Shown piece after piece: positions 36,630 through 52,500 of a stretch of 64,000 nt of DNA. The stretch comes from Mermis nigrescens (lineage: Eukaryota; Nematoda; Enoplea; Mermithida; Mermithidae). Location of the stretch: NCBI GenBank assembly GCA_036768485.1, contig JAVLUZ010000142.1, forward strand, positions 6,340,006 through 6,404,005, read 5' to 3'. A model generated the notes under the pieces. The model worked only from the letters and a program-made list of their open reading frames with translations, was not told the DNA's origin and ran no database searches. The first letter of the stretch is position 1, and each line of letters opens with the position of its first letter. Both the position numbers and the translations under genes were made by a program.

Positions 36630-39106
36630 CGGGAGTTGCCAGATGCAGGAGAATTCTCCTGAATTCAGGAGAATCTAAAATTTTCAGGAGCAGGAGCAGG
36701 AGAATGGGCTTTTCAGGAGAAATTTCAGGAGAAGTTGTAAACATGCAGGAGAATGCAGGAGAATTTTAAAATGTCAGGAGAATTCAGGAGAATCCTGAAA
36801 ATCTAGGAGAATTCAGGAGAATTTTCAAAACTTAAACAGCAAGTTATAATGATTATCATACATTAACCTTCTTACTGTACTTACTGTAGTTAGTCAGTTG
36901 TTTCACATTAAGAATTTATTTCGTTCATAGTTAAGACCTAAGTGTTAAGTTATAACTATATCCAAATAAGTTTCGTGCTTCCGTAGTAAATCATTCATTC
37001 ATTCATTTATTTATTCACTTAATATCACGAAGTGCAGAAATACATAGCTTTACACACCGTCTAATTGTTTTTATCAGTTTCATAGACGTTTGCAAACACC
37101 GTTTTTTCCACTTTTTGGTCTATTTGTCAACCAAAATTTTGGGAAATGGAAAAAATTTTTGGGCTTGGTTGGCATTTGTGGAAACTTTTTGTAATGTTAA
37201 AAATGCGTTTTAGAGAGTTAAAACTTCAAAAATTTTTCGGCGCTTCGCATAGGCGTAGCCAGGATTTTCGCCAGGGGGGGAATTCCAAAAAATTTTTTTC
37301 GTCTAAAAAACTCGTAAAAACGCGCAGGGCCGTTAAATAACGTGTTTTTTGGGCTTTTCACATCATCCTGCACGATTTAAGCCATTAAAAAATTAAATTT
37401 TCTCAAAATTTTTTTCATGTTTTTGACGGAAAAAATGCTTCTTATGCGCGCGAAGCGCTAATTTTTTGATTTTCCACCAATAAAACGGTAGAAACTGCCA
37501 AATAATAGAATAAACCGGCGCGAAGCACCGAATTTTTCGATTTTAATCCTTAAGCCGCGCCGCGCCAATTGCAGCATTTTTATCGACAATCTGGTCTAGA
37601 ACTTCACTACGATTGAAAATCCTTATCTTCTGCACGGATTCAGTTAGTTTTTGTAATGCAAAAATGCGTTTTAGAGAAGTGAAACTACAAAAATTTTTCG
37701 GCGCTTCGCGCCGAATTGATTTAATTCTTTTTTGTTATTAATATTTGAGCCGCGCCGCGTCAACTGCAGCATTTTTATCGAAAATTTGATCTAGAACTTT
37801 ACTACGATTGAAAATCCTTATCTTCTGCACGGATTCGGTTAGTTTTTGTAATGCAAAAATGCGTTTCAGAGAGGTGAAACTACAAAAATTTTCGGCGCTT
37901 CGCGCCGAATTGATTTAATTCTTACTTGTTATTGTTGTTTAAGCCGCGCGGCGCCAATTGCAGCATTTTTTATCGATAATCTGGTCCTAGAACTCCACTA
38001 CGATTGAAAATCCTTACCTTCTGCACAGTTTTTGAAATGCAAAAATGATTTAAAGAGCTAAAATTTCAAAATTTTCTAGCGCTTCGCGCCATTTGATAAA
38101 TTATAGTTTTAATTGTCAAAAACGACTTCAGAATTGGCTAAAATGCTTTACTGAAGGAAGGAAATTCAAGTTTCAACATAAATAACGTTACTGATCGTGA
38201 TATTCTTGTAGAGCGCGAAATTTTTATACAAAAAGTGCATCAAACACCGCTATTGCATGTGTACATAAAATTTTCCACTTAAAAACACTGATTTTTCAAC
38301 ACAGGCGCTCTATTTCGAACGTTTTTAGACCTCCCAAAAAATGTGGAAAAAAGTCGGAAAAAGTGGAAAAAAATTTTGGGTTCGGTCTATAATGTCAACC
38401 AAATCGCTGGGAAAAAAACGGTGTTTGCAAAGCGCCTATAAACATTTTTTTGATATATTTCAAAACGTAAGGATTTGCTTGCTACTGAAGTACATACAAT
38501 TAGTAATAAAGTATTATTTATTTTTTCAAAAGACATTGCAAACAGGGCTCTTTTCAGAAATTTTTGATGATGTAAGTGCAACTGAAAATTGGCGGTCACT
38601 GTTTTAAGCACAGAAACTGTTTTTTCGAATAATGTGTATTGTAAACAATGCGACCTCTTTAGCTTAGGCCCTTGAGCAGTATATCCTGATGAAGATCAGG
38701 AATCTGTTATTGAATGTTTGTCAGCTGTTGATGTTGAATAAAATGTTATACTTTGTGGTGCAGCATTAGTCTTCCATTATTTTTGCATCTGCCTGTATAA
38801 TGCAGATATGCTCCATGAGCTTTTTGTGAGAGAATTAATGTTCATTATTTAGCCTTGAGTGTCCTTAGGATTAACAGGCAAGAGATCAGAATAAAATAGT
38901 TGGGTGAACCAAGGTAAATTGGCCTGAGCATGCTTGATATGCATGTGTACATACAATTGTAGATCTGCTGTACAACCTTTCCTGCAAAATATGAGCCAGG
39001 AGAATTTTCAGGAGAATCAAAATATTTTCAGGAGAATTGCAGGAGAATTTTTCCCCAATTTTACCTCTGTGCAGGAGAATCTGAATTTTGGGACCTGGCA
39101 ACACTG
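36630..39106. mobile_element. 2.5-kb hAT-like element with CAGGAGAAT subterminal repeats
   Basis: Exact 8-bp duplication ATGCGCCT (36622-36629, 39107-39114). Termini CGGGAGTTGCCAG and, reversed, CAGTGTTGCCAG. Dense CAGGAGAAT motifs lie inside both ends (about 36650-36825 and 38998-39082), as expected of transposase-binding subterminal repeats. An inner inverted pair (TTTGCAAACACCGTTTTTT, 37090 and 38415) brackets a ~195-bp tandem array. No transposase recognised, so it is non-autonomous. Confidence 0.8.
37500..38100. repeat. Three tandem ~195-bp units inside the 36630 element
   Basis: Each unit runs from a CGGCGCTTCGCGCCG hairpin through GCCGCGCC(G/A)CGCCAATTGCAGC-like sequence to TTTTTGTAATGCAAAAATGC. 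The GCCGCGC blocks fall at about 37552, 37750 and 37943. Confidence 0.8.
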
Positions 39107-41554: not shown

Positions 41555-42306
41555 CAGTGTTTTTTTTTGTATTCGGCAAAGATTTTTCCCCGTGTACGAA
41601 GACCTTTGGGGACCGTCTTTGTACATGTACAAAGATTTTTGGTAAGACAAAAATTGCAAAAAAGGTCTGAAATTTGCAAAAATTTTCGGCGCTTTTGCGC
41701 CGAAATGAGTAATTGTGTCTTCTATGTATCTTTATAGTGGCAGAAATTGCATTTCAAAAGGAAAAATGTAAAATTTTTCGGCGCTCCGCGCCGTTTTGTG
41801 ACGATTCTTATTGATTTTTGACCTGACCCAGAAACTAGCTAAAATACACTACCAAAAGTCAAGCAACTTTGTTTTTATCACACTAAAATCGCTACTGTAC
41901 CATATTATAGTACCCAAAAATTTGTGTGTACAAAATGTACAAAGATTTTTCAAGGACAAAAACTGTAAAATGGTGTAAAATTTCCAAAAATTTTCGGCGC
42001 TTCGCGCCGAAATGAGTAATTGTTTGTCCTATATATCTTTAAAATGGCAGAACCATTTAGAATGGAAAAATGTCGAATTTTTGGCGCTTCGCGCCGTTTT
42101 GAGACAATTTTTTGTAATTTTTGGCGTCAGAAAACCAGAAATTAGCTAAAATACACTACTAAAGATCGAAAACCCTGTTTTACCACACTAAAATCGCTAC
42201 TGTACTATATTATTGTACACAAAAATTTGCATGTACAAAATGTACAAAGACTTTTGGGAACCATCTTTGTACATGTACAAACGGACCTTGTACAAAAAAA
42301 ACAATG
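41555..42306 (-). mobile_element. hAT-like MITE, family A, long form
   Basis: 752 bp; exact 8-bp duplication GCTACGCC (41547-41554, 42307-42314). The ends are CAGTGTTTTTTTTTGTA and, reversed, CATTGTTTTTTTTGTA. It is inserted in the GGCTACGCC end of another repeat. Confidence 0.9.
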
Positions 42307-43546: not shown

Positions 43547-46500
43547 GTAAGTATAGGTGCGTCGCATACTACATGAAGCTATACATAGACTCGTTGTGAC
43601 TAAAAAATTAACGGCTATTTGATTTGAAACGCTTCACATGCATGTAAAGAATTGTCATCGAAATCATCGAAATCTTCTACAGGTCTTTTTTGGCTTTGTT
43701 TTGTATTTTAGGATTGGGCGCAGCGTGCTAGCTATAGCGAGGCCGAATATTATTCTCTTCATATCGGATGACCAAGATATAGAGTTAGGCTCGTTTAAGC
43801 GGGCATATTATGTGTCATAGTAGAACATATATAGAACGCAATGTTGTTTTTATCCACATGCCGATTATAAACACGTTGCTCTGCAGAAACTAAATCAAAT
43901 TATCTTAAAAATAATCTAATCATTACAAATTTTATGAAAACGAACATGCATCGGCAGGCCCGCATCCAGGATTTAGTTTCGGGGAGGGGGGCAAGACTGA
44001 AAGTTTTTAAAAACATAAGGGGACCAAAGGATGGATTAAAAAAGACGTTTTACGACCACTGGAACTACACACCTTGTAAATTTTGCTGCCGAAGTACCTT
44101 AGTTATAGTGAGCAATTTGCATCCAAGGGACTCCCTCTGATGGGTCTGGGTGGCGCCCTCAAGCGCCCCCAGCGGGGTCCGCGGCAGAGCCCCGGGAAAA
44201 CTGTGAAAGATCGTTATCTTAAAACTTTCATAAAATCAGCCTTATTTCGGTTCTGAAATCAGTCTAAAAATAGTCAAGGTTCATAATTATACATGCACAG
44301 CTTGGGAATTCCGGGGTGTGAAGAACAAGCGTTTAAAGACTGCAGCCGGTGCATGTAGAAAACATAGCTAACGTAATAATTTTTTTGGTTTTTCTGGCTT
44401 ATTTATTCCAAATAGTGAACTTTGAAGGTGCTTGATCCTTAATTCTTATTTAGGCTCAGTGAGTGTCAGGTGCAGTTTTAAGACACTCCTGGGGTGAAAT
44501 TTTAAAATGCCCGTTTTGGGCCTTAAAATAATGGGTACGCGTAAGAAAACATAGTTTTTCGGCGTTTTTGGCGATGCTCTATCTTTCTGGAATACAAAAA
44601 AAGAAAAAAATAAAATCTAAAAAGTCGAATAAATTGAACAAAATGTGGTTATAACCTGAGTATATGGCGCTAATCGCCAAAAATTTGACACTTCTGAGCA
44701 AATAGATAGCTAAAAACGCTTAAAAAGGCACCTACTCTGCGAATTTTTAAGTGAATTTATGGAAAACTTGGTAAAATCGCGAATTCTGGGGAGAGTTAAA
44801 AAATTTCTAGGGGGAAAAATTTTTCTGAGGGGGTCTAAACTCCCCTGACCTCCCCCATTGATTATGTCTGCTCATAACTAAAATTCTTTGTCATATCGCC
44901 AAAAAAAGTATCATTCTCGTTCGCACGAATCTAATTTTCTGCGTAAAACCTGCAAAAAAACAATGGACATAGATGCAAAATATTCTTTAGGTTGTATAAA
45001 CATTGAATAAATATGGGGTGTTTCAACCGCGCGTTTGGGATTAAATAGATTACAGTTAATTGTGAAATTCGACGGAAAAGTTTTTGCGATGTTTCGCTAA
45101 AAGAGCAAATTGTGGAATTAAGGAAAAATCATTCTCGAATTTCATTCTGAGAGGGGTTGCAAGTGCCCCCCCTTTATCCTCCTGGATACGGGCCGGTGCA
45201 TCGGTATGATCGATAGGTATTCGACAAATTTTTAGGTTATTTCGCTTGTTTAAACGTAATATTACTGGTTTTATTTAGCTGATATTGGCTCGGAATTATT
45301 TTTTGTGATCTTATAAGGTGTTGTGCGTGAAGTGGCTTTAGTACGCAGGGCTTGGTTGGTTTCCTATGTTTGCTTTTTTGTATGTAAGTAAGAATGCATA
45401 CAACGTGGTTATATTCTTATGGACAAAGTACGCAGGAAAATGCATATCTTGTTTGGCTTTCAATTATATTTCCTGCGAGTTTTTCGGAAAAATGCAGTAG
45501 TCGGGACGATACGAGATAAAATGCCAACTAAATTTAGAACCTAGAAACATTTTATTTACAGTTATTGGGTCATAACTTAAAGGCTGGTAATATGTAAAAA
45601 ATGTGTGCAGTATACCAATGTAACGGGTGTCCCCTAAAAATCTGGAATTTCTGAGACCATAATTTATTTTTAAATCAAAAATAGAAGAGATATATGGATC
45701 GAAAGAACAAGAAAAGGCGATTCAAATGAGCTTATTTGCATTTCTCATGCGTTCATTCCATGCTGAGACGTAGACTTCAAATTAAGGCACTCCTTAATGA
45801 CATTTGTACAAGCTCTATCAGGCGATTGTCTACATATAGGTTTTTTTCGCTATTATTCGATATAAGCGAGCTGACGTCATAAATGCCGCTATTTTTTATT
45901 ACCCTGAATCGATTTCTAAAAGAAAGACTGAATTTTTTTCAATCTATATTGGGTCCAAAGGCAAAAAACTCGGCCAGGACAAAGGTTGAAACACTGTAAA
46001 TTTTCTTCAGAGAAAGTGCGACATCGAAATCGGTCAAAAAAACAAAATTAAGTTTTGTTTACTCAATTGCATACAGAACGATGAACGTAAGGTGGATTCG
46101 CTTTAGATATATCAAGAAAAAAATTCATTTTCACTGTATATAACGGTCGAATTTGACTAGCGAAGCTATGTGTGGCTGAATGTCCCGAAAAAACTTATCG
46201 GAATAAAAATTTTTTTACAGTCAGTTGTACTTTATATTTTCTTGCTTCACGAGGAATGGAAACAGGTGGAAATGAACTAAAAGTCCTTTTAAAATCCACC
46301 GGGTGCGACTTGACAAAAATCTATCAGTGTTGAGTACCACGGGCCCAAGGGGTATTAGCCAACTATTGACTTAAATTTGGCTGTGTTAGCTCATTAGCCA
46401 AGCTAATTGTTGGAATATTCATAATATACTGAGGCAATTGCATTTTCAGCAAAACGTAATAATAATAACTAGATATCTAAAAATGTGATTTTGTAAACCA

Positions 46501-49500
46501 TTTGTTAAATCCGTTTTGTGCCCGTACAATTCATTCTGTAGAAGGCATTCCGAGTTATTTTGATTTCCCTGCTTCTGCTTAGGGATGGCTAGTCAATAAC
46601 ATCAGTTCGTTAATTGTCTGTGTTTAATTTCGTTTCGAGAAAGTGGACAGACATGTTGTACAATAAATGTTTTTACAAAACCGTAAAAAGTGTTTACACT
46701 TTAGAATAGTAAGCTTATAGAAAATTGAATAGAAAAAAATTTTTTCGCCTCAAGCTTTTCGGAGATCTTTGTGAATGTACGAGTATAAAGAGTCTTGTAC
46801 AAAAAGTTTTTTAATAATCATAGTTGTGTAAGGTCAGGTCGGAATGGTCAGAGGGAGTAAAATCCAGAAAATCATCTTGCAGATAATGGTCATAACATGC
46901 CCTTTTTATCATTTTGAATGTTATTACGTCTTTGTTTCAAAAATCCTTATTTTTTATCATGTTTCATCCAATTAATCCTATCTGTGTGGCAGCGAATGGA
47001 AACTAAAAAACGAGTTTGCAGGCAAATTATTAGTAATAAAAAGATCAACTTAGTTAATTTGCTTTTTTTTTAATTATTTGATTTTTTTCCAATTTCAATC
47101 AACTTCGTATAAGATAAACAGTTTTCCTGCAAAACCTTGCATTTGTTCTGAAATCGCATAAATGTACCCGATATTTCGGAAATTTTCGGGGAGGTAGGGT
47201 TTCCAGTTTACCTCTCGTAGAATTTTTGATTTTTGAAGAAATTGTATAAAAGAACTTGTTATAAGCATTTTCTAACGATCTTTTGGCTCAAAAGTCAAAT
47301 TTTTGTCGCTTCGCGCATATGCTTATTTTGGACTATACGTATGTTCTTCAATTTACTCGACTTTTTCATATTTTTTTCAAAAATTTTTATGTGTTTATGT
47401 TCTAGAAAGAAAAAGCAGCGTCAGGAATGCCAAACAATGGTTTTCTTCGGCGCGTACCCACAATTTTTGAAACCGAAATAGGCACTTTAAAAAATGTTGT
47501 TTTGGCCCCACAATTTTATGCTGTATCTGGTGATACCTCCTCATTACACATGGGCATGGGGATCTGGACCCCCAATTCGGCTGACCCCTTAAAATCGATA
47601 GACCCCCAGAATTGAATTTTCGGTGCTATTTTTGACAATTTTTCCGTATCGAACCCCCAGAATTTGGCTGCTGCCCTTGTATACTCCTCCCTTGTGCCCT
47701 TGTGTGTATTAAAAGAATTCATATTATGGTTGTTGCGCGTTACTTATCGGCATTTTGTCGCCAATCGGAATGGTTTATGTAAGCAGATCGAGCAGATTAC
47801 ATTAAATTGAACATTTTGCGGAACAGGTGACATTCGGTTTCCAATTTTAAGTCTTATGTTGTTTTTTGCTAATTTACTGAAAGTTTCTCGCAAATCAATT
47901 CTTAATCGAGTTTCTGCCATTTATTTACATATATGTATAGAGGATCATCTCTTGAAGAAAATGTTATTTATGAGTATATGTTAATGAGTCCTTTCAAAGT
48001 TTTAGGAAAGATTTTTTATTTCAGTAAAAGTCGATTTCAATGAGTACATTATTCAGGCTTGTTTGTATATAGTTGTTGATTGCACTCAAGGCGAGGCTGG
48101 TTCTTTGTTTATAAATTTTCATTTCTGAGATGCTGAGGCGGCTGAGATAATTAACCAAAATTGATTTTACTCTTACGCTTGCTAGTAATATTGAAATATT
48201 TACTATGACTCACATATTTATTTTTTATCGCTGCCTATCATCCTTTTTTGTCATTTTCGAATACTTTTATCTATTCTTAATTTTTCACATGCACAAATCC
48301 TTCAGCGTCGATTGTGTTTTACTAGGCTCGATGGAATATATGCCGAAAGCGCTGCAAATATTCCGCGATGGAGGGGCTGAGTTTTTGAATGGCATGGTAA
48401 CGACTCCGATTTGTTGTCCGAGTCGTAGTTCTATCCTAACAGGTCTTTACGTGCATAATCATAATGTACATTCGAACAACGACAATTGCACAGGATCCCA
48501 TTGGCAATCTCAGTTCGAGCCTTGGACTTTTGCTACTTATTTGGCTAAGAATGGCTATAAAACTGGTAGAAGGCCATTATATTGAGCAAATAACAATTAA
48601 TTTTTAACTAATTAATTCTTTTCATTTTATTTTAATCGCTTTTATTTCTTTCTTGATAAAATCAATTAAACGTATTTATTAACACACAAACACTTAATTA
48701 CAAAAAACTCCTGATACTACGTATGAAAATGGTTCTCTGTTCTGTTTTAAACGGACTTTAAGTTTTCTATTCGTGATTTGCCTGATTAGCCTGCGTAGTC
48801 AGTCATTCATTATTCTTCTTTTATTCGTGCAAGTTTTTTTCGATTTTGAATCATTATTTTGACGTTGATAAGAATCGACTCATCTAAACTTTTTTAGCTG
48901 TTCCTCGACGCACTGTAACATTTTGTTTCTTCCCATTGCTTCTTTCAACTTTTTTAGCAATAACTTTTCAATTGCTTCTCTGAAGCTCAGTTAACAGGAA
49001 AATCAACCCAGATAAGAGGCCTGTCCGTATGCATGTCCATCCAAAAAATTGAGAAGTTGAGTTTTAGATTTACTTTCTTAATTGAACAGAATATGTAAAA
49101 ACACAAAATAAGGAGGCGTTACGAAAAATATGCAAGATTCTTGCCTTAAAGTTTATGCAATGAGATATTCCTCAATAAGCGCGTTTTAACCATGCCAACT
49201 TGGTACCTGCGCGACATATTCGTTATATAGTGCTATCCTCTAAAAACAATTTTTTACTTTTCGTGCTATTTCTCTTTACATATATCCTTGGTCTCTGGTT
49301 TTTGGGCTTGTTTATCGTGGCTACACTATGGCCAGGTACCTACTCCACCACTCATTTTGATTCAATATTTCTTCGTTATCGCAATATTTTCAAAAGAAGT
49401 GCAACTTTTAAAATCCACTGTTTCCTAAAAACCATTTTGTCACAAAAAATCCATCCTTTAAAAATTTTTCTCTCGAATTTTATCAATCATTAATCCGAGT

Positions 49501-52500
49501 TCTTTGGAATGTTATAGATTTTTGAATTTTTAAAATAGAATTTTTTAGAACAGCTTAGATTGTTTGCATATAATTTAGAACTTGTATGCAATATTTACGA
49601 TTCGACGCGGAGGATGAAAACTTTTTTCTAGAAAGTTCATGACTTGCACATGTCGCGTATGATGGCTGTAATGCTTATGTACATACCGGCCCTTGTTTAG
49701 GGGGGCGTCCCTCCTGGAAAAAGAAGATAATTTTTAAAACACGGAAGGGTCCCCCAAAGAAAGAAATGAAAAATTCTTGAAGTAGGTCTAAAACACCGCT
49801 AAAACATGTTTTTTGCGCACTTTTGAGCTAGTTAATTTAAAATTTTTCGGCGATTCGCGCCAGATTTATCATTTATCTATAGTTTTTGTTTTTTAGCCTG
49901 CCCAAAACCGCTCAAATTCGAGTTAGACATGTAGAACATATCAAATTTTTCGGCGCTTCGTGCCGAATTATTATTTTTCTGTATTGCTTATGTTTGTAAA
50001 TCACAAAGATTAACTACAAAGAAAGAAATTATGAAATTATTTGTTGATTGAATGATGAGAAATCAGTTGTGTAGATTGGTTAAACGATAGATCTGTGTAA
50101 TATGAATAAGAAATGAAGTGAAAATTTTTGAAAATTTTCTTCGCCAATTGCACAGGATCCCATTGGCAATCTCAGTTCGAGCCTTGGACTTTTGCTACTT
50201 ATTTGGCTAAGAATGGCTATAAAACTGGTAGAAGGTCATTATATTGAACAAATAGCAATTAATTTTTAATTAATTAATTCTTTTCATTCTATGCTAATCG
50301 CTTTTGTTCCTTTCTTGATAAAATCAATTAAACGTGTTTATTAACACACAAACACTTTATTACAAAAAACTTCTGATACTACGTATGAAAATCATTCTTT
50401 GTTCTGTTTTGATCGAAATTTAAGTTCTCTATTCGTGATTTGCCTGAGTAGCCTGCCTAGACATTATTTATTATTCTTCCTTTATTCGTGTGAATTTTTT
50501 TTCGATTTTGAATCATTATTTTAACGTTGATAAGAATCGACTCGTCTAAACTTTTGAGCTCGTTGAGATCCGCTTAGAAGTGCCTTTATTTCTGCCCATC
50601 TCCTAATGGTTCTCGAGATATGTGACCTCAAAATTTTCGCTCTTCCCCTGAAATAAAATCCTAAATACGGGCCTGTGTACATGTAATATGTGAAATGAGT
50701 ATCTTCCATTCAGACTAAGTCATTCCACCGGCCTTTAAAAAGGAGGACTTTCCCAAACCCGATTTGTAAGGAAAACTTTTTTTTAAAGTTTGAAAATCTT
50801 TTAAAAACTTTCTTTTTCTTTGTATTTTTTCAGGCGTTTTCATCGCTGTTTCGTTAAGAATAGAAAGTGAGTTACAGTACGTGGGCTAAGTGCGGGGGAG
50901 AGAATTCGCAATTGATGATGCGCTACAAGAAGTCAGTCATTTCACTTCCCTTGAAATTTAAGACTCCCTCTTTCTCAACTAAATTTTGTAGACATTTTTC
51001 GCCGCTTCTCGTCAAGAATCGTGATCCTTTTTGTTGTCCCAAAAATGGCCGACTAATCCTAACCAACCTTTTGAAGTATTATATGTATGGTATGTTTACA
51101 TGGTCATATCAATTATGATTATCGTGCCATTTTAAAATATTTTTCATTTAAATCATTTAAAAATCTTCATTGTATCATTATTATTATTATTTTGTCTTGA
51201 AAATTATTTAGCGTATTTCGGTAAATATTTGAACGAATACAACGGATCATACGTACCAGCCGGTTGGACCGAGTGGATGGGCCTGGTGAAAAATTCCCGG
51301 TTTTACAACTACACGATAAATTACAACGGAGCCAAAATCAAGCACGGTTTTGACTTCGAACGCGACTATTTCACTAATTTAATCGTTAACGATAGTTTGG
51401 CGTTTTTAAAACGGGAGCTGACGTCATTTAGTGGCCATTCTGTAATGCTTGATAAGAGTAAGCTTAAACTATGTAATTTTGTATCATGTCTACCATGATC
51501 ATACATGCAAAAGGGTGATGGAGGATTCCCCACCTGAAACTGGTCGTCTTACCATACCCGTAACCATATATGCACATAGGGGGTGAGGGGGGTATAACCC
51601 CCTCCTCCGTGTAGGGTCAGCCGTACAGGTACCGTCCGGCGATTTTGAGCTGATAGAACGTTTTTTGCATAATTTTTGAGGTCAAAAGCAGTAGAAACGT
51701 CAAAATTTTTCCGGCGCTTCGTGCCAGATTAGTACTTTCAAGTACTTTGTACTCAAAAAGCGCCCAAAATTAATAAATTTTGCATTTTTTAGTGTTAAAA
51801 GTGATATAACTCAGTCAAAATGGATTAAAAATGCTTTTAGAATGCGATATTACCACAAAAAAACGTTGTATGGGCTATTTTGACCATTTTGATCATTAAA
51901 ACAGCAGAAAAAAATCGTGAACGTTTAATTTGCTGTTTTGGATTCTTGGGATTTCACCCCCCTGCTGACCCTGACCTTGTGCACCTATGCCCCTAACCCG
52001 AAAAGTTTTGACCCTTCCTCCGGTTTTTTGCCAAAAATAGCGTTTTTTAGGCGTTTTTCAATTATTTGTGGCTGTTCTTAGCTATTTTTGGCCATTTTTG
52101 GTCGAAATTTGGAGGTCATTCCTCGCCCCCTGAAGGTACCCGGGATCATAGATGCACAACATGGCCAAGTTGGTGAGAGGTCCGTTGGTCTTATAAAGGG
52201 TCAAAAAGTGAGCTTTTTCGGGGCCAAAATGACCTCAAAAACTGAATTAAGCGCTAAAATACCGCTAAAACTACGTTATTACATAGTTTCTGGTCAATTC
52301 AAAGCACATTTCAAGAAATTTTTAATTCTAATCCTTTTTTGGCCTTCATTTCCTCTTATTTTTCCCAAAAAATTTCCCATTTTTCCATCCTGAGGTTTTA
52401 GACCCCTTACGTGCATGGTTGCCCTGGACCTCCACCCAAAATTTAATTTTTAGCCTGTACAAACACGTACAAATGATCACGATATTTACAATGTACGAGG

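Follow-up and report, generated by a model that had tools for sequence, protein, structure and literature searches.

A hAT-like MITE lying in intron 3 of the Sulf1 gene of Mermis nigrescens carries within it a 410-bp copy of Sulf1 itself, and it is highly probable that this piece was acquired in place, when a break in the element was repaired by template switching (gap filling). The mechanism is a known one, that of gap-filled single-copy Pack-hAT-like elements, and what appears new is that one joint coincides with an acceptor-like motif belonging to the MITE, with the result that an in-frame 72-nt cassette exon of Sulf1 is predicted. Positions are those of the window, that is, the whole stretch of 64,000 nucleotides that was analysed, and the features are collected in Table 1.

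Table 1. Features of Sulf1 and of the loaded element in intron 3 (window positions)
Feature	Position	Strand	Basis
Exon 3 of Sulf1, the source gene (3' end in phase 1)	48326..48565	+	tblastn with Sulf sequences; Pfam PF00884
Source segment: 82 bp at the 3' end of exon 3 and, with the donor, 328 bp of intron 3	48484..48893	+	alignment, genome search
Left target site duplication, TGTACATA	49678..49685	+	sequence, TSD+TIR scan
Left arm of the hAT-like MITE, starting with the terminal inverted repeat CCGGCCCTTGTTTAGG	49686..50145	+	TSD+TIR scan, genome search
Predicted 3' splice site, made up of pyrimidines of the MITE and CAATTGCACAG of exon 3; also microhomology zone of the left joint (MITE CCATTGCATAG)	50136..50155	+	scoring, joint analysis
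Captured Sulf1 piece (410 bp)	50146..50555	+	alignment, genome search
Predicted 72-nt in-frame cassette exon (24-residue repeat)	50156..50227	+	translation; same sequence as the exon 3 end
Donor GTAGAAGG, identical to the exon 3 donor over the first 8 intronic bases	50228..50235	+	alignment, scoring
Right arm of the MITE, ending with CGGGCCTG	50556..50675	+	TSD+TIR scan, genome search
Right target site duplication, TGTACATG	50676..50683	+	TSD+TIR scan
Sulf1 exon 4 (joining partner for the predicted cassette)	51212..51457	+	tblastn

The host gene, the element and its family

Sulf1 encodes an extracellular sulfatase of the Sulf type. Sulf protein sequences used as tblastn queries placed conserved exons in the window at 43740, 56739, 62414 and 62967 in addition to exons 3 and 4, and the C-terminal part of the gene lies about 23-24 kb past the window end. 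The translated exons 3-4 match Pfam PF00884, and exon 3 contains CCPSR, which we take to be the sulfatase motif. With exons 3-4 as the query, 183 homologous proteins were obtained; among the 120 listed, the named species span nematode, vertebrate, spider, insect, mollusc and annelid Sulf pieces. Among the species-named entries of these 120, the highest identities were those of Anisakis (70%), Aphelenchus (68%) and Trichinella (67%), covering 48-81% of the query, and the lowest E-value was that of a turkey protein (61% identity over 99% of the query).

The MITE occupies 49686-50675 and its own ends are CCGGCCC...GGGCCTG. Its target site duplication (TSD) is identical at 7 of 8 bases and its terminal inverted repeats (TIRs) match at 13 of 16 positions in the scan, which found 36 complex TSD+TIR pairs in the window; because four Markov controls also gave such pairs (16, 14, 12 and 11), a pair of this kind is by itself little proof. 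Judged by eye, two of the 36 pairs start with C?GG (49686 and 43955) and none does in any Markov control. The element is confirmed independently by a family with similar ends elsewhere in the genome, its left arm being 82-88% identical to the left arms at the 38 other genome places listed. The inverted ends and the 8-bp duplication with 7 matches lie where the preliminary description puts them. The first bases of the intron 3 MITE have drifted, with CCGGCCC in place of the family's CAGGGCC.

The genome search covered 523,963,438 bases in 860 contigs; the published genome report gives 524,220,005 bp in 867 scaffolds, 22% DNA transposons and 6.6% heterozygosity (PMC10989877). The full-length element was found in intron 3 only, while its arms (element positions 1-456 and 871-990) recur side by side elsewhere. 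The 38 relatives are all the other places listed, from 40 scored of 4862 candidates, and form a non-random sample that includes near-identical pairs. The two arms are separated by 8-33 bp in 35 of the 38 and by 132 bp in one, and the right arm is absent in two; at E 0.01, none of the 38 fetched relatives had a Sulf1 match. The genome search for further copies with and without the Sulf1 piece, which the preliminary description had asked for, gives 38 relatives, none of them found loaded, and the piece itself in two places.

The family is a MITE of about 600 bp with the ends CAGGGCC...GGGCCTG, that is, CAGGGCCGTATTCAGGGG...CGGGCCTG. Both ends were recognisable in 27 of the 38 copies, and an abutting 8-bp duplication with 7 or 8 matches was found in 14 of these 27 and not in the other 13. 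The family 5' end CAGGGCCGTATTCAGGGGGGC (exact 21 bases) had 18 matches in the genome and its reversed control none; of 12 additional loci sharing this 5' end exactly, three had a TSD-matched far end by a strict pattern. The family is called hAT-like on two features of that superfamily read from its sequence, the 8-bp TSD and the short TIRs of the CAGGG type, which are presumably of the hAT kind.

Several family loci deserve mention on their own. Each of four pairs (L011/L033, L012/L034, L041/L042 and L043/L044) shares its flanks between two places, as segmental duplication or unpurged haplotigs would produce, and the number of independent MITE copies is therefore below 38. In L048, the copy with 132 bp between its arms, the right arm seems to be tandemly duplicated. 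At L057 and L061 a family MITE, with both end motifs and no TSD by the strict pattern, stands beside a chaperonin exon that we take to be CCT5-like, which may reflect duplication of the locus or another capture event.

Other repeats were also noticed in the window. A second hAT-like element occupies 43955-45196 in Sulf1 intron 2, with a perfect 8-bp duplication TGCATCGG and the ends CAGGCCCG / CCGGCCCG, and a 367-bp element found by eye and absent from the scan list occupies 407-773, with the 8-bp duplication GTTAGATG on both sides and the ends CAGGGCCG / TAGGCCCG. Moreover, a hairpin-forming motif, CGGCGCTTCGCGCCG, has 33 window matches at two mismatches or fewer against 0.03 expected, one place being counted on both strands (for example 37699-37713, 37893-37907, 41995-42009, 49848-49862 and 49951-49965); two of its matches fall in the MITE left arm.

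Capture of the Sulf1 piece

The genome search located the Sulf1 piece at two sites only (two candidates, both scored), which lie on the same contig and the same strand and 1.66 kb apart start to start. The alignment upholds the copy of 48483-48896 that had been described inside the element and refines its limits to those in Table 1. It likewise upholds the identity of the exonic part and the drift of about one base in ten in the intronic part: the exonic bases are identical at 82 of 82 positions and the 328 intronic bp contain 32 differences (30 substitutions and two single-base indels).

The relatives read TTTTTTTAACCATTGCATAG / AGCTCGTTGAG at the break zone, the loaded element reads TTTCTTCGCCAATTGCACAG / GATCC...CTAAACTTTT / GAGCTCGTTGAG, and exon 3 reads CGACAATTGCACAG / GATCC. 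The left joint falls where the MITE (CCATTGCATAG) and exon 3 (CAATTGCACAG) are alike, ATTGCA being exact. The best 11-base match there is 9, which was equalled at 17 of 3000 sites sampled from 45-54 kb, the true neighbourhood included. At the right joint AGCT alone is in common, and as 1658 of 3000 sampled sites are as good, this is not above chance. Immediately upstream of the left joint, about 14 MITE bases are absent or cannot be aligned unambiguously. Judged from these alignments, microhomology is therefore apparent at one joint, the left.

The age of the element relative to the capture was estimated in several ways. The own arms of the intron 3 MITE depart from the 38-copy majority at 66 of 527 sites, and its terminal branch is 0.127 with 38 copies and 0.139 with 20, while the K2P distance between source and copy introns is 0.098 in total, or about 0.05 per lineage. 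Assuming an equal share between the lineages, the ratio of capture depth to insertion depth is 0.35 (0.22-0.55); assuming all change on the copy lineage, it is 0.71, with 6% of bootstraps at 1 or above. A strict count of private sites (25/503) makes insertion and capture about equally deep, with a ratio of 0.95 (0.55-1.67). Of 65 differences in the own arms, 22 are common to one other copy and 18 to two or more; the private-site count is taken as an underestimate of the branch because it drops every site common to any other copy. The MITE thus looks older than the capture by the tree and the majority distance, and of equal depth by strict private sites. On the tree and the majority distance, insertion first and in-place capture later is the best reading, and the single loaded copy adjoining its source favours the same order without any dating.

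The events may then have run as follows. The MITE, to judge from its divergence, would have settled in Sulf1 intron 3 long before the capture. A break near CCATTGCATAG / AGCTCG would have left a 3' end, which could have paired with CAATTGCACAG of exon 3; synthesis would have run on for about 400 bp into intron 3, with the template exon 1.7 kb away, and the new strand would have been sealed back at GAGCTCG.

Alternatively, a MITE copy may have picked up the piece elsewhere or earlier and then been inserted into Sulf1 intron 3, that is, by transduplication and reinsertion. The 7/8 TSD shows that an element of such a kind was inserted here, the strict private-site count allows insertion and capture at equal depth, and hAT elements hop locally. 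A second loaded copy was, however, not found in the genome, a chance insertion at a distance of about 0.8 kb from the source is very improbable in a genome of 524 Mb, and the arms are older than the capture by the tree and the majority distance, so we regard this course of events as very unlikely. In-place filling is preferred because the piece was located in two places only, none of the 38 fetched relatives matches it and the element looks older; on the same grounds, the earlier statement that the piece was reinserted one intron away is not supported. It was also considered whether the second copy might come from a haplotype or a mis-joined long read, since the Mermis nigrescens assembly is Nanopore-based with purged haplotigs (PMC10989877). 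Such an artefact is extremely unlikely: both joints lie inside one MITE with a matching TSD on its two sides, and a mis-join would not be expected to set the piece between the two arms of a single element and at a microhomology.

Relation to Pack-TIR and Pack-MULE elements

In-place filling agrees with what has been described in animals. A survey of 100 animal genomes reported 370 Pack-TIRs, of which hAT was the commonest carrier (208/370), and attributed most single-copy Pack-TIRs to gap filling, on the grounds of a nearby source, microhomology, small element loss and an element that predates the capture (Tan et al. 2021, PMC8277862). According to the portions of that survey drawn on here, insect reference genomes yielded none and the worm four, exonic capture made up 13.4%, and the transcribed cases comprised retained introns, UTR changes, ncRNA and the Ssk-FB4 genes (PMC8277862). 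The Sulf1 element resembles gap-filled single-copy Pack-TIRs in that its TIRs flank a non-TE piece of a few hundred bp with a parental copy, in that it is single-copy with the source 1.66 kb away in cis, and in the microhomology at a joint; in addition, the element loss is small, the break being internal at the same point at which 35 of the 38 relatives have 8-33 bp. Unlike the Pack-TIR cases, the Sulf1 exon was captured in sense, together with its donor, from the very gene whose intron hosts the element, so that the prediction is one of an internal coding exon in frame. Among the papers listed by the literature searches, none was seen to describe a Pack-TIR that gives its own source gene an internal coding exon in frame.

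The Pack-MULEs and plant Pack-TYPE elements are likewise DNA transposons carrying a piece of a host gene. However, a larger share of Pack-MULEs is multicopy (36% in rice, as quoted in PMC8277862) and spread by transposition, whereas the Sulf1 element is single-copy and adjoins its source. The anatomy of the Sulf1 case is unusually readable, with empty relatives, an order of events that can be inferred and a microhomology joint, and a genome with 22% DNA transposons (PMC10989877) would be a place to seek more filled MITEs.

The predicted cassette exon

Translation of exon 3, the 72 nt and exon 4 in succession gives a stop-free product in which a 24-residue repeat stands ahead of AYFGKY, and the phases join 1-to-1. 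The acceptor candidate at 50155 and the 72-nt unit phased between exons 3 and 4, both named in the preliminary description, hold good in this translation, and the in-frame cassette geometry is supported as a prediction. Since the copy brought the donor phase with it, the phase match has by itself a chance of 1 in 3. Eleven in-phase AGs occur inside the element, and the frame is open from 50155 only; the other ten were ruled out as acceptors, since each of them leads to a stop. The 24-residue repeat was absent from six Sulf homologues inspected, a result of little weight because the length range of the search left out full-length relatives. Eight sulfatase-type sequence matches were obtained among solved structures, which are too distant for close placement of the 24-residue insertion.

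Splice sites were scored with a generic matrix, which may not suit the host species. With a score of 5.8, the acceptor at 50155 comes second among the 105 AGs of intron 3 and falls within the top 0.5% of the 2950 plus-strand AGs in the window. In its original setting within exon 3 this AG scores -1.4, and when the break-zone AG was scored in 20 MITE copies, 15 gave 1.0-2.4, three hit other spots and two lacked the motif. The predicted acceptor is thus a hybrid of MITE pyrimidines and the exon's CAG/G. The pyrimidine stretch of the MITE and the exon CAG would thus form the predicted acceptor, and the copied donor would provide the other end of the exon. The copied donor, at -1.0, is 14th among the 124 GTs of intron 3, the acceptors assigned to Sulf1 exons 3, 4, 6 and 7 score 1.5, -2.0, 1.8 and -0.4 (the exon 5 acceptor being left out), and the real exon 4 acceptor ranks 38 of the 105 AGs of intron 3. 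The low copied donor and the rank of the real exon 4 acceptor make this matrix a poor guide for the species.

The identity of the exonic part could reflect use of the cassette. The probability of no difference in the 82 exonic bases of a neutral copy is 0.007 when the copy-lineage share of the divergence (f) is 0.5, 0.025 when it is 0.3 and 0.06 when it is 0.16, compared with 0.16 under protein constraint. With the 6.6% heterozygosity of Mermis nigrescens (PMC10989877), allelic difference could account for two thirds of the divergence in the intron, giving an f of about 0.16, at which the ratio of the constrained to the neutral probability is only 2.7. A recent neutral copy could therefore look identical, exon identity is weak evidence of constraint or use, and coding constraint on the copy was dropped as a main argument. 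The constraint or conversion on the coding part at which the preliminary description had hinted is accordingly weakened, the source exon being constrained in any case. Gene conversion between the two copies, which would bear on exon identity only, is suggested by their lying on the same strand 1.66 kb apart and by the left identical run of 90 columns, by far the longest (the next is 27); when the differences were placed uniformly by permutation, a left run of at least 90 columns arose in 0.03% and one anywhere in 0.9%. The first difference is, however, at 48574, and a conversion tract would by chance have had to stop within 9 bases of the exon border, which makes conversion quite unlikely.

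We lean slightly towards a capture that is real and a predicted cassette that is never or almost never spliced in, its identity being due to recent copying from a diverged allele whose exon is under constraint; this is compatible with gap filling. The heterozygosity and the small ratio of 2.7 speak for such an unused cassette, and a 24-residue insertion adjoining a conserved stretch would probably be harmful. On the other side, the predicted acceptor scores well, the donor is intact, the frame is open, and the neutral probability is 0.007 under an equal split. Detectable inclusion of the predicted cassette in mRNA is accordingly a real possibility, though one on which we would not quite count, and a selected function for it is unlikely.

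A stronger and rather doubtful proposal is that the family MITE carries a ready-made 3' splice site (a pyrimidine run and CATTGCATAG) at its break point, that microhomology repair fused this acceptor to the exon and its donor in one step, that repair of an intronic MITE alone can thus make a working in-frame duplicate exon, and that Sulf1 uses it as a cassette. In TE exonization, such as that of Alu exons, the TE likewise gives a splice site and a pyrimidine stretch for a possible new exon; in contrast to Alu exons, the Sulf1 MITE would give the acceptor side only, the coding sequence and the donor being copied from a real exon. The arrangement is also like tandem exon duplication and mutually exclusive exons, with a phase-compatible duplicated exon in a neighbouring intron, but here only the 3' part of exon 3 is duplicated, inside a MITE with its own joints. 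The repair of a broken intronic transposon can, on this evidence, copy a neighbouring exon behind a possible splice acceptor, and if mRNA includes the cassette, this would be a one-step route to exon duplication in which no transposition of the piece is needed.

Outside the MITE, intron 3 also contains a candidate 33-nt microexon (50834-50866, 11 residues), which is stop-free and phase-compatible and is framed by the top-scoring acceptor (50833, 8.0) and the top-scoring donor (50867, 4.2) of the intron.
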